NCBI RefSeq assembly: GCF_900111875.1
Contig: NZ_FOJU01000003.1
Location: forward strand, 372,001-436,000
DNA length: 64,000 nt
Reading direction: 5' to 3'
Origin: Poseidonocella pacifica
GTDB lineage: Bacteria; Pseudomonadota; Alphaproteobacteria; Rhodobacterales; Rhodobacteraceae
Shown here: positions 1,158-27,149 of the stretch, one piece after another
Layout of the letters: each line of letters begins with the position of its first letter
Numbering within the stretch: the first letter of the stretch is position 1
Notes under the pieces: model-generated
Told to the model about the DNA's origin: nothing
Seen by the model: the letters and a program-made list of their open reading frames with translations, nothing else
Database searches by the model: none
Made by a program: the position numbers and the translations under genes

Positions 1158-2099
1158 TCACATGATAAGGACTGAAAGATAAATCCCGTAAAGAGCTATG
1201 AACACGATCCCGACGAGCCGCCCGATATCCTTGCCAAAAAAGACAAAGGGTACGAGCAGCAGCGATGCCGCCAGCATCACCCAAAGATCGAAGGAAAGAA
1301 ACTCCGGATCGACCGGGATCGGCCCCACCATTGTGGCGACCCCCATGATGGCGAGAAGGTTGAACATGTTGGAGCCGATGACGTTACCGAGCACGACGTC
1401 AGCCTGCTTGCGCAATGCGGCCATGACACTCGTGGCGAGTTCGGGCAGAGAAGTGCCAATCGCGACAAGTGTAAGGCCGATAACGGTTTCTGATATTCCA
1501 AAAACGCGTGCGATGTGGACGGCGCTATCGACGAGAAGATCCGCCCCGATTGGCAAACCTACAAGGCCAAGCACGAGATAGATAAAGATCCACGACCACG
1601 ACATGTCGGGATCAACGCCTTCTAGCTCTTCTTCAACATTATCCGCGCCATTGCGGTGGGCGCGAGCTTCAAAAAACGCGTTGCCGAGGATACCCGCAAG
1701 CACAGCGAGTAGAATGAGCCCGTGCCACCAGATGAGGGGCCCAAGGAAGCAGAGCAAAATGAAGAGGACGCTGCCGCCAATCATGAAAAGATAGGTTTTG
1801 CGGGTTTCGCATGCCCCGGTGTGCATGCTCGTCAAAAGCGCGGGCACGCCCAGCACCAACAGGATATTGGCCGTGTTTGATCCAACGACGTTGCCCATGG
1901 CGAGGCCCGGTGCCCCATCGAGCATCGCCTTGACCGAGATGAGCAACTCTGGCGCGGAGGTCCCGAACGCTACGATCGTCAGGCTGACAATCAGGGCCGG
2001 AATTCCGAGGCGCAGCGAGAGATTGACGGCGCCTTTGACCAGCGCGTCCCCCGCAAGGAGCAAAATCACAAGCCCCAAGCCACCAAGCAGCCACTCCAT
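1158..2099 (-). CDS. Calcium/sodium (cation/proton) antiporter, CaxA/YrbG family
   Basis: A 313-residue inner-membrane protein with about ten hydrophobic segments arranged as two inverted halves. Each half carries the alpha-repeat of the CaCA superfamily: AFGTSAPELLIS with GNVVGSNTANILL in the first, AIGTSLPELATS with GNVIGSNMFNLLA in the second; the acidic residues of GTSxPEL bind the cation. The length is usual for bacterial YrbG-type K+-independent Na+/Ca2+ exchangers. It is the last but one gene of a compact minus-strand run: the small Cys-rich protein ends 2 bases upstream of its start. Confidence 0.88.
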   Translation of the reverse strand: MEWLLGGLGLVILLLAGDALVKGAVNLSLRLGIPALIVSLTIVAFGTSAPELLISVKAMLDGAPGLAMGNVVGSNTANILLVLGVPALLTSMHTGACETRKTYLFMIGGSVLFILLCFLGPLIWWHGLILLAVLAGILGNAFFEARAHRNGADNVEEELEGVDPDMSWSWIFIYLVLGLVGLPIGADLLVDSAVHIARVFGISETVIGLTLVAIGTSLPELATSVMAALRKQADVVLGNVIGSNMFNLLAIMGVATMVGPIPVDPEFLSFDLWVMLAASLLLVPFVFFGKDIGRLVGIVFIALYGIYLSVLIM

Positions 2100-2101
2100 C
2101 T

Positions 2102-2272
2102 TCAGCCTTTCCTTTCGTCTCTACAGGAGCAAGGCCCGCGGCCAAGCTGTAATCGACGGCAATGGGGACATCGGGCGGCGGCCAGCCGATCGCGCCCGGG
2201 GAAGCGTAACCGCCCGAACATGGCGAGAACCGCCATCCCCGCGAGAAACACCGTCACGATTTTGACTATCAA
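2102..2272 (-). CDS. Small membrane-anchored zinc-ribbon-like protein (56 aa)
   Basis: A 56-residue protein starting at TTG (2272), 4 bases after the stop of the S49 peptidase gene and ending 2 bases before the caxA start. Residues 2-20 form one hydrophobic helix (IVKIVTVFLAGMAVLAMFG); the cytoplasmic part has CPHC at 35-38 and CSC at 48-50, a plausible four-cysteine metal knuckle. I recall similar tiny proteins of unknown function in this neighbourhood in other Rhodobacterales, but have not checked. The tight spacing on both sides and the Cys pattern argue for a real gene. No function can be assigned; a structural or assembly role beside the transporter or protease is speculation. Confidence 0.68.
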   Translation of the reverse strand: MIVKIVTVFLAGMAVLAMFGRLRFPGRDRLAAARCPHCRRLQLGRGPCSCRDERKG

Positions 2273-2276
2273 GGTG

Positions 2277-3074
2277 TCACAATCCGAAGCGCGAATAGGC
2301 CGCGCGTTCTTCGATTTGGCCCAGTGCGTCCTGCAGGAACTGACCACTGATGCGTTGGAGGATCGACCGGCGCGCGCCATAGCGGGCAAACCGGACCTTG
2401 TCACCGAACCGCTCTTTCATCGTCGGGACGAGATGGCCGATGCCATCCGCAAGTCCAACCTCCACAGCGCCCTGCCCTGCCCAGATCTCGCCTGTGAAAA
2501 GATCCTTCTCCAATGCGAGCTTGTCGCCGCGTCGCGCTTTGATCTGGGCGATAAAGGTGCCGTGCAACTGCTCCAGCAAGCGGTGAAGGCGGGCGACGTC
2601 TTCTTCGCGTTCGGGCAGGAATGGATCGAGGAAGCTTTTGGAATTCCCGGCGGTATGGACACGCCGCTCCACGCCCTGACGGGCCAGAAACACGTGCGCA
2701 CCGAACCCTGCCGAAATGACGCCAATGGACCCGAGAACAGACGCCTCGTCGGCCCAGATCTCATCTGCGGCGGACGCAAGCCAGTAGCCCCCCGATGCCG
2801 CCACATCTTCGACGAAGGCATAGACGGGAATATCCAACTCATCCGCCAAACGGCGAATGCGCGCGGCAATAAGCGAGGATTGCACCGGGCTGCCGCCGGG
2901 GGAGTTGATCAACAGGGCAACGGCGGCGGGCTTGCCGCGACGGAAAGCCCGCTCAATGGTCGAGGCAATGGCCTGATCATTGAGGGCGGCCCGCGGGCCG
3001 GAGGCGATCATGCCCTGAAGGCGGATCACCGCCACCAGAGGACCAGATTTGATAAAGGGGATCCATCTTCTCAT
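2277..3074 (-). CDS. S49 family peptidase (SppA/SohB-like)
   Basis: A 265-residue serine protease of the ClpP/crotonase fold. The Ser-Lys dyad is visible: Ser94 in AASGGY and Lys146 in GNSKSF. The conserved INSPGGSP oxyanion loop is at about 57-64. SppA-type enzymes degrade signal-peptide remnants or membrane proteins. This is a short single-domain form without an obvious N-terminal transmembrane helix, so it may be peripheral rather than an integral signal-peptide peptidase. It heads a run with the small Cys-rich protein and caxA; about 100 bases separate it from the ABC permease upstream. Confidence 0.88.
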   Translation of the reverse strand: MRRWIPFIKSGPLVAVIRLQGMIASGPRAALNDQAIASTIERAFRRGKPAAVALLINSPGGSPVQSSLIAARIRRLADELDIPVYAFVEDVAASGGYWLASAADEIWADEASVLGSIGVISAGFGAHVFLARQGVERRVHTAGNSKSFLDPFLPEREEDVARLHRLLEQLHGTFIAQIKARRGDKLALEKDLFTGEIWAGQGAVEVGLADGIGHLVPTMKERFGDKVRFARYGARRSILQRISGQFLQDALGQIEERAAYSRFGL

Positions 3075-3176
3075 GGAACCTCATGTAGATGGGCGGGGTC
3101 TCCTAAACAAGACGCCCCACCCAACCTGATCGCAATGATCCCCGATATGTTCCGCTATGGCCCGCCCTTTGGACGT

Positions 3177-3938
3177 TTAATCGCGCAGGCGCCAGCCAGT
3201 GCGGAAGATCCACCACACGAAACCAAGGCACCCGGCCGTGAACCCCGTGATCGCAAAAAGACTTAGTAAAATGGGCAGATCTGCCTGATCAAAAAAGGCC
3301 CAGCGGAAGCCGGAGATGAGATAAACTACCGGATTGAAGAGCGTAATCGTCTGCCAGATCGGAGGAAGCATCGAGAGCGAATAAAATGCTCCACCGAGAA
3401 AGACGAGCGGCGTGACGATCAGAAGCGGGACGATTTGCAACTGCTCGAAGTTGCCTGCCCAGATCCCGATGATGAACCCCAGCAGGGAAAAACTCAGGCA
3501 GGTCAGCAACAGGAACGCGATCATCGCGACGGGATGCGCAATCGACAGATCGACAAAGAATGCCGCTGTCCCCAAGATCACAAGTCCGATGAACAGCGCC
3601 TTGGTCGCCGCCGCCCCCACGTAACCCGCCACGATTTCGAGGAAGTTGACCGGCGCAGAGAGCAGCTCATAGATCGTCCCAATGAACTTGGGGAAGTAGA
3701 TTCCGAAAGATCCGTTTGAAATGGCCTGCTGGATCACGGAAAGCATGATGAGCCCCGGAACGATGAACGCCCCGTAAGACAGGCCATCAACCTCTTCGAT
3801 CCGACTACCGATCGCCGTACCGAAGATCACGAAATACAAGGACGTTGATATGACCGGAGAGATGAAGCTCTGCGTCATCGTTCGGAAGAACCGCGCCATT
3901 TCAAAGCGGTATATGGCCCAGATTGCGCCGGCATTCAT
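3177..3938 (-). CDS. ABC-2 type transporter permease
   Basis: A 253-residue integral membrane protein with six hydrophobic segments and the ABC-2 layout of NodJ/DrrB-like exporters: an N-terminal amphipathic stretch, then [20 protein letters not shown] and a C-terminal helix ending in a charged tail. It overlaps the ATP-binding gene by 4 bases (ATGA), so the two make one exporter in the inner membrane. Substrate is unknown; relatives export drugs, polysaccharide precursors or lipids. Confidence 0.87.
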
Positions 3939-4864
3939 GCGCCGTCCTCCTTTACCAAGCCGACGAAGATTTCTTCGAGGCTGCTTTGACTTGTGGCGAT
4001 ATCCGACAGCACGATCCCCGCTTCGGTCAGGTCACCGATGAGACGCGCAATGCCGGTTCGTTCGGCATTTCTGTCGTAGGTATAGAGAAGCGACGTCTTG
4101 TCCGGCCCAAATTCGAGGTCATAGAGGCCAAGACTGTCTGGGATTTCTTCCAGCGGCTCGGTCAACTCGATGCTGAGTGTCTTGCGCCCCATACGCTGCA
4201 TGAGCGCGGCCTTCTCTTCGACCAGCAAGAGCCGCCCCCCGGAGATGACACCGACACGATCCGCTATCGCCTCGGCCTCTTCGATGTAATGCGTGGTCAG
4301 GATGATTGTCACACCATCCGCCTTAAGCTGCGCCACGGTTTCCCACATGTCCTTGCGCAGTTCTACATCGACACCCGCCGTCGGCTCATCGAGAAAGAGC
4401 ACGCGCGGCTCATGTGACAGCGCCTTTGCGATGAGGACACGCCGCTTCATCCCGCCGGAGAGTTCCATGGTCTTGGCGTCGCGTTTGTCCCAGAGTGACA
4501 GTTGGCGCAGGATCGCCTCGATCTTGGCATCATCACGCCGCTTGCCAAAGAGGCCCCGTGAGAAGCTTACCGAGCTCCATACCGTCTCGAAGGGCTCCAG
4601 AGAAATCTCCTGCGGCACAAGGCCTATAAGCTGCCGCGCGCCGCGATACCCCTTGAGCGTATCGTGCCCCCCTACGGTGATGCTGCCCGACGTGGGCATC
4701 GTGATGCCGCAGATAGTAGAAATCAGTGTGGTCTTTCCCGCGCCGTTGGGTCCGAGAAGCGCGAGAATCTCACCTTCTTCGATATCGAGATCGACACCTT
4801 TCAGGGCTTCCATACCGGAAGCATAGGCCTTGCGCAGACCTTTGATGGAAACGATGGCCGTCAT
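3935..4864 (-). CDS. ABC transporter ATP-binding protein (CcmA/DrrA type)
   Basis: A 309-residue ATPase. Walker [10 protein letters not shown], signature LSGGMKRR, Walker [12 protein letters not shown] and the switch histidine in LTTHYIEEA are all present. After the nucleotide-binding domain (to about residue 220) there is the usual C-terminal extension of roughly 85 residues seen in DrrA-like exporters. It is the first gene of the two-gene exporter operon with the permease that overlaps its 3' end. Substrate unknown. Confidence 0.9.
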
Positions 4865-8252: not shown

Positions 8253-8579
8253 TATTCTTCCTTTTAGGACCGACCTACGTCGGCCTCACAATTCTGGGCA
8301 AAAGCCGTTTGGTTTAGTCCACCCGCCCGAACGTCAGAGCTCATTTGGCTTGCGCTTCTGGGTCTGGGCCCCTCAAGTGCGAACCTGATGGTCCGTCAGA
8401 TCAGGTCCCTTGATTATCATCGCAGACTGTAAACCTCCGGTAAGATTCTGATTTAATTCAAAGGTACCAGCTCATTACCATCGAAGCGAAGGAGAGCACG
8501 CGGGCGTTTGTAAGGTCATCAGCTTGGGGCAAAGCAGACCGTGCTTGCCTCCCCCAGATGGAGCGGGCAAAACCGATTC

Positions 8580-9629
8580 ATGCTCGAACGATCTTCAGAA
8601 CCGGCCCATGGCAAATTTCTTCCCGGCACCGTGCACAAGCGCGATGCCTTCTCCGAGACGATCTCGGGGCATATGTCCGAGGCGCCGGCGACCAAGGTGG
8701 TGCTTCGGCGCCTTTCGGGCGTTTCGCCTTGGCTGCGCCCCCTGGCATGGAGCTTGGCCCGCAAGGAAATTCGCGGGCTGCGCGCCGTGGAGGGAATTGC
8801 CGGTACACCGACACTCTTGCGCGTCGATCGCGAGGGGCTGTTGCGCACATGGTCAGAGGGCATGCCGCTCAACCTTGCAAAACCGAAGAACCCCGCCTTC
8901 TACCGTGACGCGGCGCGACTGCTTGCCCAGCTTCGCAGGCGGGGCATTACCCACAACGATCTTGCCAAGCCACAAAACTGGCTGATGGCACCGGATGGAC
9001 ACGCCGAAATCATCGACTTTCAGCTTGCGACGGTCCATCGCCGGAAAGGCTTGCGATATCGCCTGATGGCCTATGAGGACCTGCGCCACCTTCTGAAGCA
9101 GAAACGCAAGTTCGCGCGTCATCTTCTGACGCCGACCGAGAAGCGGCTACTTGCGCGGCGTTCCCTGCCCTCCCGGATATGGATGGCGACTGGGAAAAGG
9201 CTTTACAATTTTGTCACGAGGCGTCTGTTCGATTGGTCGGATGGCGAGGGTGCCGGAGATCGGTTTCGCAAGGATGGGCCAGCCATTCGAGACGCCCTGC
9301 TCGCCCACCCGCATGTGCATGCCGTCGCACTGTCCCCCTTCTCGCTCCCCGCGCGAGGCGTCGGGATCTACGCATTTGTCGTGAGTACGCTTCCTGAAAC
9401 GGAATTACGCTCCCTCGCTGGTCGGCGCATTGAATTGCTGCAACCGGTCAAGGCGCTCCCCCTCCATGCAGATGGTACCCCGCGTGAGGACCTGCTAGAA
9501 TTGATCGCCATGAACCGGCTCGATGAGTTGGAGGCGATTCTGACCCATGATCCCGAAATGCGGGCCGTGGTTGAACCGATAGTGGCCGAACGGCTGAACC
9601 TGACGGATCGGCGCTTGCGGGAAGTCTGA
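8580..9629 (+). CDS. Kinase-like protein with AMP-binding-C-like tail
   Basis: A 349-residue protein. Residues 40-165 look like a minimal RIO/lipopolysaccharide-kinase-type fold: catalytic loop H125-N-D127 with N133 (HND...N), and D146-F-Q in place of the usual DFG, so the ATP/metal residues are kept. The glycine-rich loop is not obvious. Residues about 230-320 resemble the C-terminal lid of acyl-CoA synthetases (IRDALLAHPHVHAVAL... GIYAFVV... ADGTPREDLLELIA). The ATG at 8580 gives the best N-terminus; a GTG at 8541 would add 13 residues. Substrate is unknown; serine/threonine, sugar or lipid phosphorylation are all possible. The sufT-like gene follows 66 bases downstream. Confidence 0.72.
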   Translation: MLERSSEPAHGKFLPGTVHKRDAFSETISGHMSEAPATKVVLRRLSGVSPWLRPLAWSLARKEIRGLRAVEGIAGTPTLLRVDREGLLRTWSEGMPLNLAKPKNPAFYRDAARLLAQLRRRGITHNDLAKPQNWLMAPDGHAEIIDFQLATVHRRKGLRYRLMAYEDLRHLLKQKRKFARHLLTPTEKRLLARRSLPSRIWMATGKRLYNFVTRRLFDWSDGEGAGDRFRKDGPAIRDALLAHPHVHAVALSPFSLPARGVGIYAFVVSTLPETELRSLAGRRIELLQPVKALPLHADGTPREDLLELIAMNRLDELEAILTHDPEMRAVVEPIVAERLNLTDRRLREV

Positions 9630-9695
9630 GTCTTTCCCTTTACGCTCCCTCCGGCATTTCCTATATCTGCCATCCACACAGGCGAAAGGCATCCG

Positions 9696-10058
9696 ATGAC
9701 CGACGCATCAGAACAGCTCGAAGGCGCCCCCCTCATTGCGCCGTCCAGCACCGACCATCCGCTTTATGATCAGGTGGTAGAGGCCTGCCGTGGGGTTTAT
9801 GATCCGGAGATTCCCGTCAACATCTATGATCTTGGGCTCGTGTACACGATCCAGATCAGTGATGAGAACGAGGTTCGCATCGTCATGACGCTCACCGCGC
9901 CGGGTTGTCCGGTGGCGGGTGAAATGCCGGGATGGCTCGCCGAAGCGGTTGAGCCCTTGGCCGGCGTGAAACAGGTTGATGTTGACCTTACGTGGGAGCC
10001 GCCCTGGGGAATGGACATGATGAGTGACGAGGCGCGTCTCGAACTCGGGTTCATGTAA
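9696..10058 (+). CDS. SufT/MIP18-like iron-sulfur assembly protein (DUF59)
   Basis: A 120-residue protein of the DUF59/MIP18 family. The core YDPEIPVNIYDLGLVY and the TLTAPGCPVAGEM segment are typical; the cysteine in PGCP is the conserved family cysteine. Family members (SufT, PaaD relatives) help mature Fe-S proteins. The N-terminal 25 residues are a variable extension. GAAAGG lies before the ATG. An A-type carrier gene lies 1.5 kb downstream on the same strand, so an Fe-S assembly role is consistent, though the suf operon itself is not in the window. Confidence 0.85.
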   Translation: MTDASEQLEGAPLIAPSSTDHPLYDQVVEACRGVYDPEIPVNIYDLGLVYTIQISDENEVRIVMTLTAPGCPVAGEMPGWLAEAVEPLAGVKQVDVDLTWEPPWGMDMMSDEARLELGFM

Positions 10059-19184: not shown

Positions 19185-20006
19185 ATGACCGAGATTAGAC
19201 CCGTGAAAGACGCAACTCCCGTCAAGACCTTGCCCGATGCTCAGACTGTCACTGAAGTCACGCATTGGACGGACCGACTGTTCAGTTTTCGTGTAACCCG
19301 GCCTGCATCACTCCGCTTTCGATCGGGGGAATTTGTGATGATCGGCTTGCTGAAGGACGACGGAAAGCCCCTTCTGCGGGCCTATTCCATCGCGTCGCCC
19401 TCGTGGGATGATGAACTGGAGTTTTATTCGATCAAGGTTCAGGATGGCCCCCTTACATCGCGACTGCAACACATCCAGCCCGGCGATCAGATCATCCTTC
19501 GGCCAAAGCCTGTCGGCACATTGGTGCATGACGCCTTGCTTCCCGGCAACCGGCTTTGGCTATTCTCCACCGGAACCGGGATCGCGCCTTTTGCATCGCT
19601 TATCCGCGATCCACAGACCTACGAAGACTATGACAAGGTGATCCTGACACACACCTGCCGCGATGTGGCGGAATTGGAGTATGGTCGGAAGTTAGTGGAG
19701 AACGTTCGCAACGATGAGCTTCTGCGCGAACTGATCGGCGACGGCCTCGACAAGCTTGTCTACTACCCCACAACGACTCGCGAGGAGAGCCCGAAGATGG
19801 GGCGGATCACGGCGCTCCTGAGTGACGGGACGCTCTTCAAGGATCTGGGTGTCGATGATTTCGGAGCGGAAAATGACCGGGCCATGGTGTGTGGCTCGAT
19901 GGGTCTCAATACCGATATCAAGGTAATCCTCGAGGGGTTCGGACTTCGCGAGGGAGCAAATTCCGAACCCGCCGAGTACGTCGTTGAAAAGGCGTTTGTG
20001 GGGTAA
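19185..20006 (+). CDS. fpr: Ferredoxin/flavodoxin-NADP+ reductase
   Basis: A 273-residue FAD enzyme. The FAD-binding RAYSIASP and the NADP-binding STGTGIAPFASLI are clear, and the C-terminus ends with the bacterial type's short tail. It moves electrons between NADPH and ferredoxin or flavodoxin. As last gene of the cys operon it can supply electrons for CysI in the absence of CysJ. A good AAGGAG site lies about 30 bases upstream of the chosen ATG with nothing to start near it, so the translation start is less sure than the gene. Confidence 0.92.
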   Translation: MTEIRPVKDATPVKTLPDAQTVTEVTHWTDRLFSFRVTRPASLRFRSGEFVMIGLLKDDGKPLLRAYSIASPSWDDELEFYSIKVQDGPLTSRLQHIQPGDQIILRPKPVGTLVHDALLPGNRLWLFSTGTGIAPFASLIRDPQTYEDYDKVILTHTCRDVAELEYGRKLVENVRNDELLRELIGDGLDKLVYYPTTTREESPKMGRITALLSDGTLFKDLGVDDFGAENDRAMVCGSMGLNTDIKVILEGFGLREGANSEPAEYVVEKAFVG

Positions 20007-20033
20007 GATCTACGTCAGCGAATGAGTTGCACC

Positions 20034-20930
20034 TTACTCGGCGGCGAGGGCCGCCGGGGCGAGGCTGTACTCGTTGAGAACCTCGGCAAACGCCGGATCG
20101 CGGGACGCGATATGGAGGGTGGCGCGTAACATTCCCTCTTTGGAGCCACAGTCAAACCGCTGACCACTGAAGTGGAAGCCAGAAAGCCCGACCTTGTCGA
20201 TCCCGCGGGCGATGGCGTCGGTGAGTTGAATTTCACCGCCAGCACCTGGCGTCTGTGTCTCCAGCGCCTCAAAGATCGACTCGTGCAGGACATAGCGACC
20301 AACCACGGCAGTGAGCGAAGGCGCTTTACCTGCCTCGGGCTTCTCAACCATACCAAGAGCACGGCTGATTTGCCCCTTCCGGTGGCTTACATCCAGAACA
20401 CCGTACTTGTGGACGCGATCTTCGGGCACATCCATCACGGCAACGAGGTGACCCGCGCCAGTTTCTTCATACCCGCCGATCATTTCGGCCAGACATCCCG
20501 GCTCTCCGAGGATGAGGTCGTCGGGTAGGATAACAGCGATCGGGCCGGGCAGCGCGTGTTCCTTGGCGCATAGCACAGCGTGACCAAGGCCAAGCTGCTC
20601 TTCCTGCATCACGAAAACGACGTCTTCGCCGGTATCGTCAACGCATGCACCATCAAGGTACTCGGCGATGTCGGACTTGCCCTTGGCGCGGAGATGCTCG
20701 CTCAACTCGGTGTCTGCGCGGACATGCTTCTCAATGGCAGTCTTCGACGGATGGTTTACAAAGATCATCCGCTCGATCCCAGCGGCACGAGCCTCATCAA
20801 GAGCGAACTGAATCAATGGGGTGTCGATAACCGGCAGAAGCTCCTTGGGGGTCGCCTTCGTCGCCGGGAGGAAACGAGTTCCCAAGCCTGCCACGGGAAA
20901 AATTGCTGTTCTCACCTTCGAACCGGCCAT
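20034..20930 (-). CDS. galU: GalU, UTP-glucose-1-phosphate uridylyltransferase
   Basis: A 298-residue nucleotidyltransferase making UDP-glucose. The N-terminus (KVRTAIFPVAGLGTRFLPAT) contains the nucleotide loop, followed by KATPKELLPV and VVGRYVL. ATG at 20930 has AGAGGAG before it. It is convergent with fpr and divergent from the glucosylglycerol operon, separated from the latter by 391 bases. UDP-glucose feeds polysaccharide synthesis; GgpS normally uses ADP-glucose, so GalU need not be part of that pathway. Confidence 0.96.
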   Translation of the reverse strand: MAGSKVRTAIFPVAGLGTRFLPATKATPKELLPVIDTPLIQFALDEARAAGIERMIFVNHPSKTAIEKHVRADTELSEHLRAKGKSDIAEYLDGACVDDTGEDVVFVMQEEQLGLGHAVLCAKEHALPGPIAVILPDDLILGEPGCLAEMIGGYEETGAGHLVAVMDVPEDRVHKYGVLDVSHRKGQISRALGMVEKPEAGKAPSLTAVVGRYVLHESIFEALETQTPGAGGEIQLTDAIARGIDKVGLSGFHFSGQRFDCGSKEGMLRATLHIASRDPAFAEVLNEYSLAPAALAAE

Positions 20931-21321
20931 GGGCGCTAACTCCTCTAAAATCTCGTCACTGTTTCTGCTCTGCAGCACTGGTCTCAGGGTATGACTTGAC
21001 GCTGCGTTGTCAAAACAAACCCTGACATTCGGTTAAAGAACGCGACAGTTTGCAAAGAGTTTCATCGAAATCGTCGGATATGGGTTTTTTATTTTGTTGA
21101 GCAAAATCAATATTGGGTTCGTAAACCGCGCAATTTTTAGGCAAATATTGCCTCCAACACAGTCCCCCTCGGAGCGGGTCATTCATTTCCAGGTCGAGTA
21201 GCTCTCCGACTCGAACAGCCTCTGACCGACCCCTAATATGCTGCGGTGCAGCTAAGCGATCCGCGGCATTGATATTCTGCTCTGGCCCCCTACCATCATA
21301 GGCGAAAAGGAAATCACCTTC
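20931..21321. promoter_or_regulatory. Divergent control region of galU and the gpsA-ggpS operon
   Basis: This 391-base interval has no gene that I can support. It is AT-rich between about 21050 and 21150. A 15-base palindrome AGGCAA-ATA-TTGCCT lies at 21139-21153, and an inverted repeat TCGAGT/ACTCGA with a 9-base spacer at 21194-21214. The ATG of gpsA is preceded by AAGGAA. The length and the repeats suggest regulated transcription, as expected for an osmolyte operon. Confidence 0.45.
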
Positions 21322-22479
21322 ATGTCAGAGAACCGGAACGACGACAGCGAATCCCAGATCGCCGCGCCGAGCGTAGCGGGCCGTTTGATGCAGCCCCCGC
21401 CGTACAATAGAGTGGCGGTCATAGGCGCAGGATCATGGGGTACGGCGCTTGCCACCATTGCCGCCCGAAATGGCCGGCAAACAAAGTTGTGGGGCCGTAA
21501 TCCGAAAGTGATCCGCTCAATCAACGCGGGGACAGGCAATCCGACCTATCTTCCCGGGGTGGCTCTCCCCCGGAGCCTGCTTGCTACTGATGATCTGGCC
21601 GCCGCTCTAGCCGATGCAGAGGCTGTGATCCTCGTGACCCCCTCCCCCACGATCCGTGCGATGAGCGCTGCAATCCGGGAGCACCTTGCCCCCGGCGTGC
21701 CGGTCACGCTCTGCTCCAAGGGGATAGAAACGCAAACAGGGCTGCTCCTCTCGCAAGTGGTTGAGGCCGAACTGCCCGGTCATCCGGTTGGGGCCCTGTC
21801 CGGCCCGACCTTTGCCGGAGAAACCGCGCTTGGGCATCCGACGGCTGCGACGATAGCATTCCCGTTTTCCTACGAGGATCGGCTGAACCCAAGCTTTAGC
21901 CCGGCCGCGCGGATGGCGGTGACAATGGGGGACGACATGTTTCGCCCCTATATCTCGGACGACCTGATCGGAGTAGAGGTTGGCGGCGCGGTCAAGAACG
22001 TCATCGCCATCGCCTGCGGTATGATGACGGGCGCAGGCTTTGCCCAGAATACCCGCGCGGCTCTGATCACCCGCGGCATAGACGAGATGAAACTTCTGGC
22101 GGAGGCTCTTGGCGGCCGCAGGGAAACAGTGACAGGGCTTTCTGGCGCGGGGGATCTGACACTCACCTGTTCCAGCGAGACCTCGCGGAACATGTCGCTC
22201 GGCAAGCAACTGGGCGAAGGGTTGCTTCGGTCTGAGTGCTTTGGCGGCAAGCCCGTGGTGGTAGAGGGGGAGGTCAATGCGGTCTCTGTGATCGATCTCA
22301 GCAGGCGGATCGGGGTGCCCATGCCCATCTGCGAGGCTGTACACAACGTCCTGCACAATGGCGGAGACCTGAGGGAGACATTCGCGGAACTCTGGTCACG
22401 GCCCATGGAATCCGAACCGCGAACAATGGACATTGCCGCCCACCACGCCCCAGGCGTCGTGCCGGCCAACTCGGTGTAG
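21322..22479 (+). CDS. gpsA: GpsA, NAD(P)-dependent glycerol-3-phosphate dehydrogenase
   Basis: A 385-residue enzyme reducing dihydroxyacetone phosphate to sn-glycerol 3-phosphate. The dinucleotide loop GAGSWGTALA and the catalytic lysine in GGAVKNVIAI are present. It is longer than usual (about 330): some 28 extra residues precede the Rossmann fold and about 20 follow the normal end. It is the first gene of a tight three-gene operon; one base separates its stop from the HAD gene. In that setting its job is probably to supply glycerol 3-phosphate to GgpS rather than to phospholipid synthesis; a second housekeeping gpsA would be expected elsewhere. Confidence 0.93.
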   Translation: MSENRNDDSESQIAAPSVAGRLMQPPPYNRVAVIGAGSWGTALATIAARNGRQTKLWGRNPKVIRSINAGTGNPTYLPGVALPRSLLATDDLAAALADAEAVILVTPSPTIRAMSAAIREHLAPGVPVTLCSKGIETQTGLLLSQVVEAELPGHPVGALSGPTFAGETALGHPTAATIAFPFSYEDRLNPSFSPAARMAVTMGDDMFRPYISDDLIGVEVGGAVKNVIAIACGMMTGAGFAQNTRAALITRGIDEMKLLAEALGGRRETVTGLSGAGDLTLTCSSETSRNMSLGKQLGEGLLRSECFGGKPVVVEGEVNAVSVIDLSRRIGVPMPICEAVHNVLHNGGDLRETFAELWSRPMESEPRTMDIAAHHAPGVVPANSV

Positions 22480-22480
22480 A

Positions 22481-23257
22481 ATGACACAGAAAACTGACTT
22501 CAACGACCTATCAAACCGCGACTTCGTGCTCGCAACCGATCTCGACGGTACCTTTCTGGGCGGCTCGGAACGAGACCGAGAAACGCTCTATTCCTGGATA
22601 GAAGAGAACCGCGATACCATCGGTCTCGTCTTCGTCACGGGGCGCGATCCGCAATTCATCGCAGAGCTTTGCGATGGGGGCGTGCCTTGGCCTGAGTATG
22701 TCGTGGGTGACGTGGGAACAACCATCGCCGGAGTAGGCATGTCCCGGAAAATTGAGCCGATTGAAACGTTGGAGACCGAAATCGCAACGACATGGGGCGA
22801 CAGCGGCACGCGCGTCCGCGAGGCGCTGAACGGGCATCCTGGCCTTACGCTCCAACAGACTGCCTTTCGCTATCGCGTAAGCTATGATCTCAACCCGGCG
22901 GAGTTTGATGATCGCGCGTTGGAGATTGTCCGCGACATGGGATTCGACCCGCTGATTTCGGACAACCGGTATTTCGACGTGCTGCCGCGCGGGATCAGCA
23001 AGGGCCCCTCGATCCAGCGGCTCGTGGATCATCTCGGCGTCGCGCGAGAGCGCACGCTCGTCGCGGGTGACACGATGAACGACTTCTCGATGCTTGCGTG
23101 CGGCTTGCCCGCGGTCGCGGTGGGCGGCGCCGAAGAGGCGCTTCGCCGCGCCCTCGAAGGACATGACCACGTCTATCACGCGGAAGCCCTCGGCGCGGGA
23201 GGTATCCTTGAGGCCATCGACGCGCTAAACCTGCATCGCACTCCGGGAGGAAATTGA
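22481..23257 (+). CDS. HAD-IIB phosphatase, probable glucosylglycerol-3-phosphate phosphatase
   Basis: A 258-residue HAD hydrolase of the Cof/mannosyl-3-phosphoglycerate phosphatase type. Motif I is D20-L-D22-G-T, motif II is VTGR, motif III lysine is in GISKG, and motif IV is AGDTMNDF. It lies between gpsA and ggpS, with its stop one base from the ggpS start, so dephosphorylation of glucosylglycerol phosphate is the natural reading. In some heterotrophs a HAD domain is fused to the N-terminus of GgpS; here the same order is kept as two genes. It is unlike the cyanobacterial GgpP type. Substrate is inferred from context. Confidence 0.8.
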   Translation: MTQKTDFNDLSNRDFVLATDLDGTFLGGSERDRETLYSWIEENRDTIGLVFVTGRDPQFIAELCDGGVPWPEYVVGDVGTTIAGVGMSRKIEPIETLETEIATTWGDSGTRVREALNGHPGLTLQQTAFRYRVSYDLNPAEFDDRALEIVRDMGFDPLISDNRYFDVLPRGISKGPSIQRLVDHLGVARERTLVAGDTMNDFSMLACGLPAVAVGGAEEALRRALEGHDHVYHAEALGAGGILEAIDALNLHRTPGGN

Positions 23258-23258
23258 T

Positions 23259-24764
23259 ATGTCCAGCGATCTGGTGATCGTCTACCACCGCCAGCCCTAC
23301 GAAGAGGTCGAGGAGAACGGAAAGACGGTTTTTCGGGAGCATCAAAGCCCTAACGGGATCGTCCCAACGCTCAAGAGTTTCTTTCGCCGCGCCGAAAAAG
23401 GTTCATGGATTGCGTGGAAGCAGGCGGAGGATACGGCAAATCCCGGTTTCGAACGGATTGTCGAATTTGACGACAAGAATGGCCGCTACTCCGTCAATCG
23501 CCTGCCGCTGACCCCCGAACAGGTGAAAAGCTTCTATCACGTCACCTCGAAAGAAGCCTTCTGGCCAATCCTCCATTCGTTCAAGGAGAAGTATAACTAC
23601 GATCCCGTCGACTGGCCGGTGTTCCGGGAGGTCAACTGGGCCTTTGCCGAAGCTGCTGCGGCCGAAGCCGCCGAGGGCGCTAAGGTATGGATTCACGATT
23701 ACAACCTCTGGCTGGTGCCGGGCTATCTGCGGCAGTTGCGGCCCGATGTGGTGATCTCCTTTTACCACCATACGCCCTTCCCCTCCGCGGATATGTTCAA
23801 CGTCCTGCCATGGCGCAAGGAGATCGCCTTGAGCCTGCTGGCCTGTGACATCGTCGGATTTCACATCCCCCGCTATGCCGCAAACTTCGTCTCGGTGGTG
23901 CGCAGCCTCGCCGATGTAGATCAAACGCGCCGCGAGACCGTTCCCGAAATGATGCTGTCAGAAGGCAGCGCCTTGAGCGATCGCTCGGTGCCTACCGCGA
24001 TTACCTTCGAGGGGCGAGAGATCCTCGTGGCGACCTCCCCCGTCGGGATCGACGCCGATTACATCGAAAGCGTCGCCTCGCGCCCCGAAACAGCCGAGCG
24101 GGTGGAGGAGCTTCGCAAAGAGCTTGGCACCAGCAAGATGGTGCTATCGGTCGGGCGCACGGATTACACCAAGGGCGGACGCGATCAACTTCTAAGCTAT
24201 GAGCGTCTTCTCGAAGGCTCCAAAGACCTTCGAGGCCAGGTGCGGTTGATGCATGTCTCGGTCAGCGCAAATCGCAACATGTCCGTCTACGAAGACATCC
24301 AGAACGAAATCGAACAGATCGCAGGCCGTATCAATGGGCGCTTCGGTACCTTCGAATGGCAGCCGGTCGCGCTCATCAGTCGGGCAATCCCCTTCGACGA
24401 TCTCGTCGCCTACTACAAGGCTGCGGATGTGGCGTGGATCACACCCATGGCCGATGGCATGAATCTGGTGGCAAAGGAATTCGTCGCGTGCCGGGACGAC
24501 AACGACGGGGTGCTGGTCCTGTCGGAATTTGCCGGTGCCTCGGTCCAGTTGTCCTCCGCGATTCTGACCAACCCGTTTTCAAACCGGTCAATGGATACCG
24601 CAATCCGCCAAGCCCTCGATATGGAACCCGAGGAACGCCGTCAGCGGATGGAGCTTTTGCGGGACAACGTCAAAACCTACGACATTCGGCAATGGGCCGA
24701 CGATCAGGATCTTCTGTTGAAAAAGGCCACGGCCATCCGAAAGGCCGCGCTGACCTCAGCTTGA
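23259..24764 (+). CDS. ggpS: GgpS, glucosylglycerol-phosphate synthase
   Basis: A 501-residue GT20 glycosyltransferase. It shares the trehalose-phosphate synthase fold (HDYNLWL at 146-152, HHTPFPS at 170-176, VGRTDYTKG, LSEFAGASVQL), but the N-terminus reads LVIVYHRQPYEEVEENGKTV and SPNGIVPTLKSFF, which I recall as the cyanobacterial GgpS pattern and not OtsA. GgpS joins glucose from ADP-glucose to glycerol 3-phosphate; the product after phosphatase action is the compatible solute glucosylglycerol. The adjacent gpsA, which makes the acceptor, supports GgpS over OtsA. GGGAGG precedes the ATG. Confidence 0.88.
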   Translation: MSSDLVIVYHRQPYEEVEENGKTVFREHQSPNGIVPTLKSFFRRAEKGSWIAWKQAEDTANPGFERIVEFDDKNGRYSVNRLPLTPEQVKSFYHVTSKEAFWPILHSFKEKYNYDPVDWPVFREVNWAFAEAAAAEAAEGAKVWIHDYNLWLVPGYLRQLRPDVVISFYHHTPFPSADMFNVLPWRKEIALSLLACDIVGFHIPRYAANFVSVVRSLADVDQTRRETVPEMMLSEGSALSDRSVPTAITFEGREILVATSPVGIDADYIESVASRPETAERVEELRKELGTSKMVLSVGRTDYTKGGRDQLLSYERLLEGSKDLRGQVRLMHVSVSANRNMSVYEDIQNEIEQIAGRINGRFGTFEWQPVALISRAIPFDDLVAYYKAADVAWITPMADGMNLVAKEFVACRDDNDGVLVLSEFAGASVQLSSAILTNPFSNRSMDTAIRQALDMEPEERRQRMELLRDNVKTYDIRQWADDQDLLLKKATAIRKAALTSA

Positions 24765-24768
24765 GCCA

Positions 24769-25416
24769 TCAAGACCCGCTGCGCACCCCGATCCCAGCGG
24801 TGCGCAGCACCCATGGGCCAAGTTCCGTCAGCATTTGCGACATTGCCGCATCCAACGCCGGCACGATGGCCTGCGGCGTGGTCCCTGATGTCTCAGCCGC
24901 CCCGGCAAAGCTGCGCCGCGCAAGTACCGCAGCATCGTTTTCCCGGATAAGCGTAGCCGTCAAGGCGACGCGCGTGACCGTGCGTCCGTCCGCTGACACA
25001 TCCGCCTGAAGGTCGGTCAGTTCGGTCAGCAAGGCATAGTCGCCAACCGTCCCCAAAGGCCGCCGTCCAACGAAGCGAAACCCGCCGGAAGCTTCCATGC
25101 GACGCAGAATTACCGTCTGCACCATTTCCGGGGCCGGGTCGGTCCAACGGGCATCGGGCAAATAGCTCGCCTCAAGAGGACTGGGCCGTACGAGGATGCG
25201 ATCGGTATCCAATGCACCGGATACCGTTGGAAGCTCTACCGTGAGATCACTGCGCAGGCTGCCTGTCGCGGCAAAGCGAGCACCCTCTCCACGCAACTCA
25301 TAGGCATCGAGCGGTTCGGCTGCATCGCTGAGCGCGCCGATGGCCGAACACCCCGGAAGCGCGAGCAGGAAACACATCATAAGTGGCCGCAGCATGGCAA
25401 TCCTCACTTTTTTCAC
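24769..25416 (-). CDS. MCE-operon lipoprotein (PqiC-like ABC auxiliary lipoprotein)
   Basis: A 215-residue lipoprotein: hydrophobic signal then lipobox LPGC with Cys at about residue 23. The body matches the ABC-type transport auxiliary lipoprotein family (PqiC/DUF330). It would be anchored in the outer or inner membrane facing the periplasm and help an MCE lipid transporter. Its start overlaps the MCE gene's stop by 4 bases, so it is the last gene of this operon. No MlaC-type soluble carrier is present. Convergent with ggpS, 4 bases apart. Confidence 0.85.
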   Translation of the reverse strand: MKKVRIAMLRPLMMCFLLALPGCSAIGALSDAAEPLDAYELRGEGARFAATGSLRSDLTVELPTVSGALDTDRILVRPSPLEASYLPDARWTDPAPEMVQTVILRRMEASGGFRFVGRRPLGTVGDYALLTELTDLQADVSADGRTVTRVALTATLIRENDAAVLARRSFAGAAETSGTTPQAIVPALDAAMSQMLTELGPWVLRTAGIGVRSGS

Positions 25417-27149
25417 CGTCTGTACTCCGGCGTTCCGTTGTTGAGCAGGAACCGCGCCGGATCGCGCTCTATCCGCGTGGCAAGCGAGTCGAGTGTCGAA
25501 ATCAAGCGCCGCGTTTCTGCGCCGAGGCGCGTAAATTGCGGCAACCCCCCACTCACAAAGTCATTGATGGGCCCCCGCGCGCCCGTGACGATACCCGAAA
25601 GGTCCGAAAAGGCGACCCGCGCGGATTCGGCAGCAGCGCGAAGATCCTGCGAGGCAAGGGGGATTTCCTCGGAGACCTGCGCAACGGTTTGATCGAGGCG
25701 GCCTATCGCCCCGCGCAATGCGGTTGCGATTTCGTCGACGTCCTCGTTGATCACGCGGTCTGCCCCGTCGAATGTCCGCTCCGCCGCGGCCAGCGTTCGT
25801 TCGCCCGTCGCGAGAGCCCGCTCAATCGCGCCCAAGGTGGTGTTGGCACGGCTGAATGTCTCGGTCACTGTGGTCATGGTCAGTTGGGCATCATCGCTCA
25901 AACCTTCCAACCTGCCCGTCGTGGAGCTGAGGTCAGCAGCGATGGTGTCGATTGCGTTGCGTGCAGTTGTCGCCGCCGAACGAACGTCCGCCACGATGCC
26001 GGGCACGTCCTCGCCGACAGTCTGCGCTATCCCGTCCGCAGCTTGCCGGGCGCTGTCCATCGCCGCGCGGGTTTCAGCGACAAGCGCGGCACCATCCCCA
26101 TCCATCAGCGTCTCAAAAGAAACAGCCGCGCTTTCGACGGCATCAAGGGTCGCAACGAGGTCATCCACCATGATATCGGCCTCGGCGAGCAACTCGTCTG
26201 CCTGCGTCAGGCGCGCTGTGGCCGATATGCCGGTATCGCGCCATGTATCGAGAAGATCGCCCGCCTTGATCCCCAACTCATCCGTTTGCCGGCGGATGGA
26301 GGCGGAGGTTTGCGTCAGATCCGACATCGCCACCCGCAGATCGTCCGAGATAAAGTTCCCTGCCCGCTCGATGGTCGTCTGCGCGCTCTGGAGCGTTTGG
26401 GTACCTGCTTCGAAGGTGATCTCGGCCTTTTCGGACAGATCTTCGACCGCGACGATTGCGTCGTCTGCCAGCGTCAGAGTGCGCTCCACAGCCCCGGCGA
26501 TCCCTTCCAATTCACCGGTAAAGCGGGCAATCTCCGACACCGACTCGCCCACATTCGCAGCCACGGTCGAGAAATCCGAAAGCGTCTGGTCGAGCTTCTC
26601 GGAGGATGATTCCAGATTTAGAATGATATTCTCAACCCGATCGCGGTTCTCATCGGACAAAAGGCCGTTGACCTGTTCCGCGATCTCCAGAATCTCGGAC
26701 AGGAGTCGCGGCGCGTCCTGTGTCAGGCTCTGCAGCGTAGAGCGGTCGGATTCCAGCACCGGTATGTCGTCACCGTCGCCTTTGGCAAGCGGAGCGTCCG
26801 GATCACCCGAGGTAATCGCCACATAGGCCACGCCGGTGACCCCCTGGCTCTCGATTGTAGCCACGCTGTCTTCACGGATCGGCGTATCTGCGGCCACTTC
26901 AAGGCGCACACGAACGGTTCCGTCCTGGTCCTCCGAAAGCCGCAGTTCCACGACCTGTCCGACGCTGAGGCCCGCAAACCGAACGTCGGACGCGCGGTCC
27001 AGCCCACTGACGTTGTCGAAAAACGCATCGTAATAGGCAAACTGACGGTCAAGCTCCGCCTTGGAGAACCAGATGAAGAAGCCCATGAGGCCGAGGAAAC
27101 CGGCGAGGGTAAAGGCCCCGATCAGGATGAAGTTCGCGCGCGTTTCCAT
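25413..27149 (-). CDS. MCE domain protein, long periplasmic form
   Basis: A 578-residue protein: one transmembrane helix at about 9-27, one MCE (MlaD) domain at about 38-116, then some 420 residues of almost uninterrupted helix-forming sequence rich in Ala, Thr, Asp and Glu with many TxxAD/ERTLxxAE-like heptads. E. coli MlaD is about 180 residues, so the helical part could build a needle or tunnel across the periplasm, as in single-MCE-domain proteins with long helices. Partner of the ATPase and MlaE permease encoded upstream; substrate is probably phospholipid or sterol-like lipid. Confidence 0.9.
   Translation of the reverse strand: METRANFILIGAFTLAGFLGLMGFFIWFSKAELDRQFAYYDAFFDNVSGLDRASDVRFAGLSVGQVVELRLSEDQDGTVRVRLEVAADTPIREDSVATIESQGVTGVAYVAITSGDPDAPLAKGDGDDIPVLESDRSTLQSLTQDAPRLLSEILEIAEQVNGLLSDENRDRVENIILNLESSSEKLDQTLSDFSTVAANVGESVSEIARFTGELEGIAGAVERTLTLADDAIVAVEDLSEKAEITFEAGTQTLQSAQTTIERAGNFISDDLRVAMSDLTQTSASIRRQTDELGIKAGDLLDTWRDTGISATARLTQADELLAEADIMVDDLVATLDAVESAAVSFETLMDGDGAALVAETRAAMDSARQAADGIAQTVGEDVPGIVADVRSAATTARNAIDTIAADLSSTTGRLEGLSDDAQLTMTTVTETFSRANTTLGAIERALATGERTLAAAERTFDGADRVINEDVDEIATALRGAIGRLDQTVAQVSEEIPLASQDLRAAAESARVAFSDLSGIVTGARGPINDFVSGGLPQFTRLGAETRRLISTLDSLATRIERDPARFLLNNGTPEYRR

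Follow-up and report, generated by a model that had tools for sequence, protein, structure and literature searches.

A gpsA–HAD phosphatase–ggpS cassette of Poseidonocella pacifica, probably for glucosylglycerol synthesis, and its adjoining second galU

Introduction

Which product is made by a glycosyltransferase of family GT20 whose gene directly follows those of a phosphatase and a glycerol-3-phosphate dehydrogenase? Three such genes occupy positions 21322 to 24764 of a 64,000-nucleotide stretch of the Poseidonocella pacifica genome (contig NZ_FOJU01000003.1, positions 372,001 to 436,000; the whole stretch is called the window), and a first-pass annotation had read them as a self-contained glucosylglycerol operon of gpsA, a HAD phosphatase gene and ggpS. 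Our analysis of the window, its genome and related loci indicates that the cassette very probably makes the compatible solute glucosylglycerol from building blocks that it provides itself, the reactions being assigned from the families to which the encoded proteins belong. GpsA would convert dihydroxyacetone phosphate to glycerol 3-phosphate, GgpS would join glucose from a nucleotide sugar to glycerol 3-phosphate to give glucosylglycerol phosphate, and the HAD phosphatase would remove the phosphate from this intermediate. A divergent second GalU may make the uridine diphosphate glucose (UDP-glucose) for the GgpS reaction.

The accessible parts of PMC10873239 and PMC11787520 present glucosylglycerol as a solute found in cyanobacteria and in a few heterotrophs, whose enzymes are fused. 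The fused protein, GgpPS, is reported from Stenotrophomonas rhizophila, Pseudomonas mendocina, Azotobacter vinelandii and Marinobacter in the same part of PMC10873239, and the accessible text of PMC6753628 describes glucosylglycerol as a compound of commercial use.

Gene order and identity of the GT20 enzyme

Direct reading of the open reading frames and their junctions confirmed that the three genes stand in tandem on the plus strand with one base at each junction, as the first-pass annotation had stated. The gene gpsA (21322-22479), a cassette-type second copy encoding an NAD(P)H-dependent glycerol-3-phosphate dehydrogenase (PF01210/PF07479), started with the ATG at 21322 and stopped with the TAG at 22477-22479, followed by the single spacer base 22480. 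The phosphatase gene (22481-23257), whose product is a HAD-IIB protein of the sucrose-phosphatase type and the proposed glucosylglycerol-phosphate phosphatase, extended from the ATG at 22481 to the TGA at 23255-23257, with the single spacer base 23258 behind it. Its called reading frame began earlier (TTG 22433), and the ATG at 22481 agreed with the alignment of relatives. The gene ggpS (23259-24764) ran from the ATG at 23259 to the TGA at 24762-24764 and was preceded, within the 3' end of the HAD gene, by GGAGG, which resembles a ribosome-binding site.

The ggpS product belongs to PF00982, which also contains OtsA, the trehalose 6-phosphate synthase. Among solved structures, the best sequence matches of the ggpS product were named trehalose-phosphate synthases, and 0 of the 23 matches were named GgpS. 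Both observations would be expected if the GT20 enzyme were OtsA and the operon product trehalose. The curated models argued against this: the protein scored 669.6 bits with the GgpS model TIGR02398 (cut-off 569), passing it by 100 bits, and did not reach the thresholds of the OtsA models TIGR02400 (411.3 vs. 564.85) and PRK10117 (232.9 vs. 759). TIGR02398 was also passed by two fused proteins (818.4 and 757), a Tistrella protein (676.6) and another alphaproteobacterial protein (697.4), and three annotated trehalose synthases failed it (386.7, 276.9 for E. coli OtsA, and 295.2). In a maximum-likelihood tree of 48 GT20 rows, 28 GgpS rows (19 split, including the window protein, 5 fused and 4 other) were separated at 100/100 from 20 OtsA-like rows. 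The latter comprised OtsA of E. coli, three plasmid-encoded proteins with a trehalose synthase annotation and 16 GT20 rows under the TIGR02398 cut-off. The fused and the split-plus-other GgpS proteins formed sister groups (99/96 and 100/99), and the tree gave no polarity for fusion versus split. Some OtsA-like rows and L157 were flagged for long branches, and E. coli OtsA for an unusual composition.

Two points weigh against the GgpS assignment. Two annotated trehalose synthases also missed TIGR02400 (535.7 for L160 and 432.7 for L162, vs. 564.85), so that a score under this threshold carries little weight in isolation; and the tree was built without a cyanobacterial row and with no GgpS row known as experimentally verified. 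It is through the curated model TIGR02398 that the window protein is apparently tied to cyanobacterial GgpS.

The active site provided a further distinction. Six residues of E. coli OtsA that we presume to be functional (Asp130, His154, Arg262, Lys267, Asp361 and Glu369, numbered without Met) were all invariant across the 115 aligned rows. The position of OtsA Arg300, which we take to be a ligand of the phosphate of glucose 6-phosphate, was occupied by Arg in 20/20 OtsA-like rows and by Asn, Asp, Ala or Ser in all 95 GgpS rows, among which some species may occur twice; the window GgpS had Asn. The trehalose reading was rejected on the GgpS model, the tree and this active-site position, all of which bear out the earlier view that the enzyme is GgpS and not OtsA. 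The HAD protein of the sucrose-phosphatase type in place of OtsB and the linked supplier of glycerol 3-phosphate also speak against trehalose, which is hardly credible as the product.

Position 360 of OtsA, beside Asp361 and within the PMADG motif of the window ggpS, was occupied by Ala (79), Val (6) or Cys (1) in 86/86 split GgpS rows, by Arg in the fused and other GgpS rows (9/9), and by Arg, His or Lys in the OtsA-like rows. This departure of the split enzymes from the Arg of the fused and other GgpS proteins would suit a different product, whether another glucoside formed on a three-carbon phosphate or a similar acceptor, or a head group in place of a free osmolyte. Such a product is improbable, since gpsA within the cassette points to glycerol 3-phosphate and the excess over the TIGR02398 cut-off is large. 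In favor of glucosylglycerol synthesis, a genome search with GgpS (E up to 0.001) gave a single match.

The HAD phosphatase and its fused relatives

The HAD protein matched PF05116, the sucrose-phosphatase family, with 136.1 bits, and its motifs DLDGT, GR, KG and GDT.ND were conserved in more than 97% of 95 aligned rows. It shares the HAD-IIB subfamily and these motifs with sucrose-phosphate phosphatase (Synechocystis SPP, PDB 1s2o) but fell far under the sucrose-phosphatase cut-offs (63.8 vs. 183.65 and 75.1 vs. 209.75). The first-pass annotation had described the phosphatase and synthase as split but in fusion order. This description holds because the N-terminal half of the fused proteins shares PF05116 (3/3 scanned), is 37-43% identical to the window HAD and lies in frame with the synthase (five fused loci), so that HAD followed by GT20 repeats both the families and the order of the fused protein. 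The fused proteins had open frames of 761-828 codons, with one TGA within the match of the G646 row. In the window, the TGA at 23255-23257 and the spacer base made HAD and ggpS separate reading frames, and hence not a fused GgpPS. Up to E 10, the model of the cyanobacterial phosphatase GgpP, TIGR02399, matched nothing in the genome, and a cyanobacterial-type GgpP elsewhere in the genome was ruled out by this empty search. At one related locus (L157:6673-7387), the HAD gene in front of a stand-alone ggpS was matched in two frames, which suggests a frameshift in the genome or the assembly.

The second gpsA and glycerol 3-phosphate supply

The cassette GpsA passed NF000942 with 358.7 bits (cut-off 257). 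A check for a second gpsA, proposed in the first-pass annotation, found one: the genome contains two gpsA-type genes, and the other copy, at G000:C6:215267, is divergent (40% identical). In a quick tree of 36 GpsA rows, 24 cassette-type rows, with the window gpsA among this type, and 12 housekeeping rows lay on opposite sides of one branch with a support of 100 in the SH-like approximate likelihood ratio test (SH-aLRT); two of the 24 came from genomes without ggpS above threshold (G007 and G094).

The association of this gpsA type with ggpS was examined among 295 sampled genomes of the family, taken as the same set for the ggpS, gpsA and GalU searches. The cassette-type gpsA (E up to 1e-85) was present in 47 genomes, 45 of them shared with ggpS, that is, in 45/51 ggpS-positive and 2/244 ggpS-negative genomes (Fisher p 5.5e-44; this and the Fisher test below ignore shared ancestry, and their significance is overstated). 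Six genomes had ggpS without the cassette-type gpsA (G002, G037, G179, G196, G251 and G272); G196 was 64% complete, its ggpS was interrupted by a stop and HAD gave no match there, and the other five all had HAD. In the two ggpS-negative genomes, the cassette-type gpsA stood without adjoining HAD or ggpS (L226:4081-5310 in G007 and L227:3425-4498 in G094), and these lone genes are possibly remnants of a lost cassette.

Distribution of the cassette

A search of a collection with one genome per species gave 211 confirmed loci, of which the best 80 were retained. By tblastn, HAD was located directly 5' of ggpS in 80/80 of these loci and gpsA 5' of HAD in 71/80 (partial in L033); its absence from the remaining nine, one of which (L015) has just 1.46 kb of upstream sequence, counts against gpsA as a constant part. 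The order is therefore real, as the first-pass annotation had proposed, but it is common and not peculiar to this host. The genera included many of the Rhodobacter type as well as Hoeflea, Oricola, Ahrensia, Nitratireductor and Aquisalinus. Within the family, ggpS was detected in 51/295 genomes (E up to 1e-100), so that many more marine bacteria may make glucosylglycerol, and HAD adjoined ggpS in 29/30 loci returned by this search, the exception (L100) being a contig piece that ends at ggpS. The trio was also found on plasmids of Dinoroseobacter shibae (a 153-kb plasmid) and Falsirhodobacter algicola, with ggpS named in the annotation, and on a megaplasmid of Tistrella mobilis typed as conjugative, and the flanking genes varied between genera. 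As a module the cassette is widely shared, and its genes had already been annotated singly.

The other genome of the same genus in the sample (G071) provided a natural comparison. It had the same neighbors in the same order, with a galU 75% identical to that of the window and the lipoprotein gene about 300 bases further on, and neither ggpS nor a cassette-type gpsA was found above thresholds genome-wide. A short-word comparison of 600 bases around the gap with window positions 20001-25500 detected no remnant of the three genes. Loss in that genome and gain in the window genome are both possible. At the L229 locus (G256), open reading frames at 84-2901 that resemble, by eye, pieces of an insertion sequence transposase stood directly 5' of a co-directional gpsA-HAD-ggpS-galU block, which hints at mobility.

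The linked galU and the sugar donor

The cassette is not self-contained without a supplier of nucleotide sugar, and in this respect the first-pass annotation did not hold; it had overlooked a second galU, adjacent and divergent. This gene (20034-20978, minus strand) is predicted to encode a galU-type UTP--glucose-1-phosphate uridylyltransferase (PF00483) and is the genome's second copy; judged from a same-genus protein, its true start may be the ATG at residue 17 (about 20930). Its best NCBIfam model was GalU TIGR01099, with 277.5 bits below the cut-off of 326.8. The other galU-type copy, at G000:C4:224104, was 50% identical to it and scored 322.8 with the same model as a partial sequence. A quick tree of 41 GalU rows placed 20 linked and three unlinked rows, with the window galU among this cassette type, apart from 18 housekeeping or other copies (SH-aLRT 99); two pairs were identical, and L212 and L236 were flagged as long.

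A linked galU was present in 36/76 loci with at least 3.9 kb of upstream sequence, or 37 including L022, which has less, and all were divergent and upstream. The linked GalU type (E up to 1e-88) was found in 17/295 family genomes, 14/51 ggpS-positive and 3/244 ggpS-negative (Fisher p 1.9e-9). In all 14 it lay within 2.6 kb of ggpS, 13 times divergent and upstream and once (G256) downstream in the same direction, and the 7/7 genomes checked with the linked type also carried a second galU-type gene. This linkage suggests UDP-glucose as the donor, unlike the GgpS of Synechocystis, which reportedly needs adenosine diphosphate glucose (ADP-glucose) and does not use UDP-glucose, according to the accessible part of PMC6004087.

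Several observations weigh against a role of this galU in the pathway. It was not near ggpS in 40/76 loci with enough upstream sequence, 37/51 ggpS-positive genomes were without the GalU type, and the linked galU is therefore not essential. Three ggpS-negative genomes had the type (G071, G188 and, with a weaker match, G160), so that galU was retained in the same-genus genome that has no cassette, and a glgC-like gene in the window genome could supply ADP-glucose. Together with the reported donor of the Synechocystis enzyme, these facts suit an alternative that concerns the donor and leaves the pathway as it is: ADP-glucose would come from the glycogen pathway, and the adjoining galU would serve another pathway, its linkage having a different cause. 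This alternative deserves serious weight, although at somewhat less than an even chance; the enrichment of the GalU type in ggpS-positive genomes, its adjacency in 14/14 of them in two arrangements, and the second galU-type gene in all genomes checked argue against it. The use of UDP-glucose and not ADP-glucose by GgpS would form part of a wider proposal, in which a mobile or repeatedly lost module of marine alphaproteobacteria can bring its own GpsA and GalU and osmolyte synthesis is decoupled from glycogen metabolism. We put this proposal forward tentatively, as a plausible account that falls short of being probable.

Comparison with known systems

Compared with the fused GgpPS proteins, to five of which the split proteins are sister, the cassette uses two genes in place of one polypeptide, and it has an attached gpsA, which was not found in the five fused loci (L152 comprises just 4.9 kb). 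The cyanobacterial system of Synechocystis, as given in the accessible part of PMC6753628, resembles the cassette in the GgpS family and in a separate phosphatase gene, but here a PF05116 HAD takes the place of GgpP. A figure legend within that part names glpD, glpK and gpsA among the genes drawn with cyanobacterial ggpS, so a gpsA near ggpS is not wholly new. OtsA and OtsB share the GT20 family and the catalytic positions with this system and differ in retaining Arg300, in the phosphatase family and in failing the GgpS model.

In the literature, a glucosylglycerol-phosphate synthase of an alphaproteobacterium appears in a table of PMC7002103. PMC7824335, which surveys the genomes of phototrophs, Rhodobacteraceae among them, for osmolytes, mentions glucosylglycerol but contains no word beginning with ggp. 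The accessible parts of PMC5924519, PMC5507952, PMC3985010 and PMC11787520 had nothing bearing on the arrangement, and no description of the gpsA-HAD-ggpS order or of a linked galU was found in searches of the open-licence literature. The pathway is known; the split arrangement with its own precursor genes would be a variant of glucosylglycerol synthesis shared by many marine bacteria. With a phosphatase outside the GgpP family and dedicated precursor enzymes, it would offer a compact gene set for a commercially used compound.

Neighboring genes, other solutes and candidate recycling genes

The intergenic region between the divergent galU and gpsA (20979-21321) may be expected, from its position, to contain both promoters. 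A promoter consensus scan of 20900-24900 gave one promoter-like site (21269-21296) vs. 1.1 expected in shuffled sequences, which is the level of chance, and a terminator scan was likewise at chance level. On the 3' side of ggpS, a gene for an ABC-transport auxiliary lipoprotein and an MCE/MlaD-type gene were found in the opposite direction.

The host has a second compatible-solute pathway, as indicated by an ectoine synthase gene (PF06339; G000:C2:629818-630192), so that glucosylglycerol would be one of several solutes. In Marinobacter, ggp adjoins ggpPS, according to the accessible text of PMC10873239. GH13 (PF00128) matched six places in the window genome but none on the contig of the window (C3), with other degradation families left out of the search; no Marinobacter-type degradation gene is therefore linked, which counts to some degree against the glucosylglycerol reading. 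Among the relatives, a GH13-like gene was located after galU in L055 and L078 (2/80 loci) and in L237, and ahead of gpsA in Tistrella (L159). The NCBIfam model that fitted it best was one named beta-galactosidase BglA, at a score under the cut-off, and the same was true of two GH13 genes of the window genome. In L230 (regions 1905-4619 and 8345-10000), which represents the same locus as L055, open reading frames that resemble, by eye, glycerol kinase and an iron alcohol dehydrogenase were convergent after ggpS. The GH13-like, glycerol kinase-like and iron alcohol dehydrogenase-like genes near the cassettes of these few relatives are candidate recycling genes.

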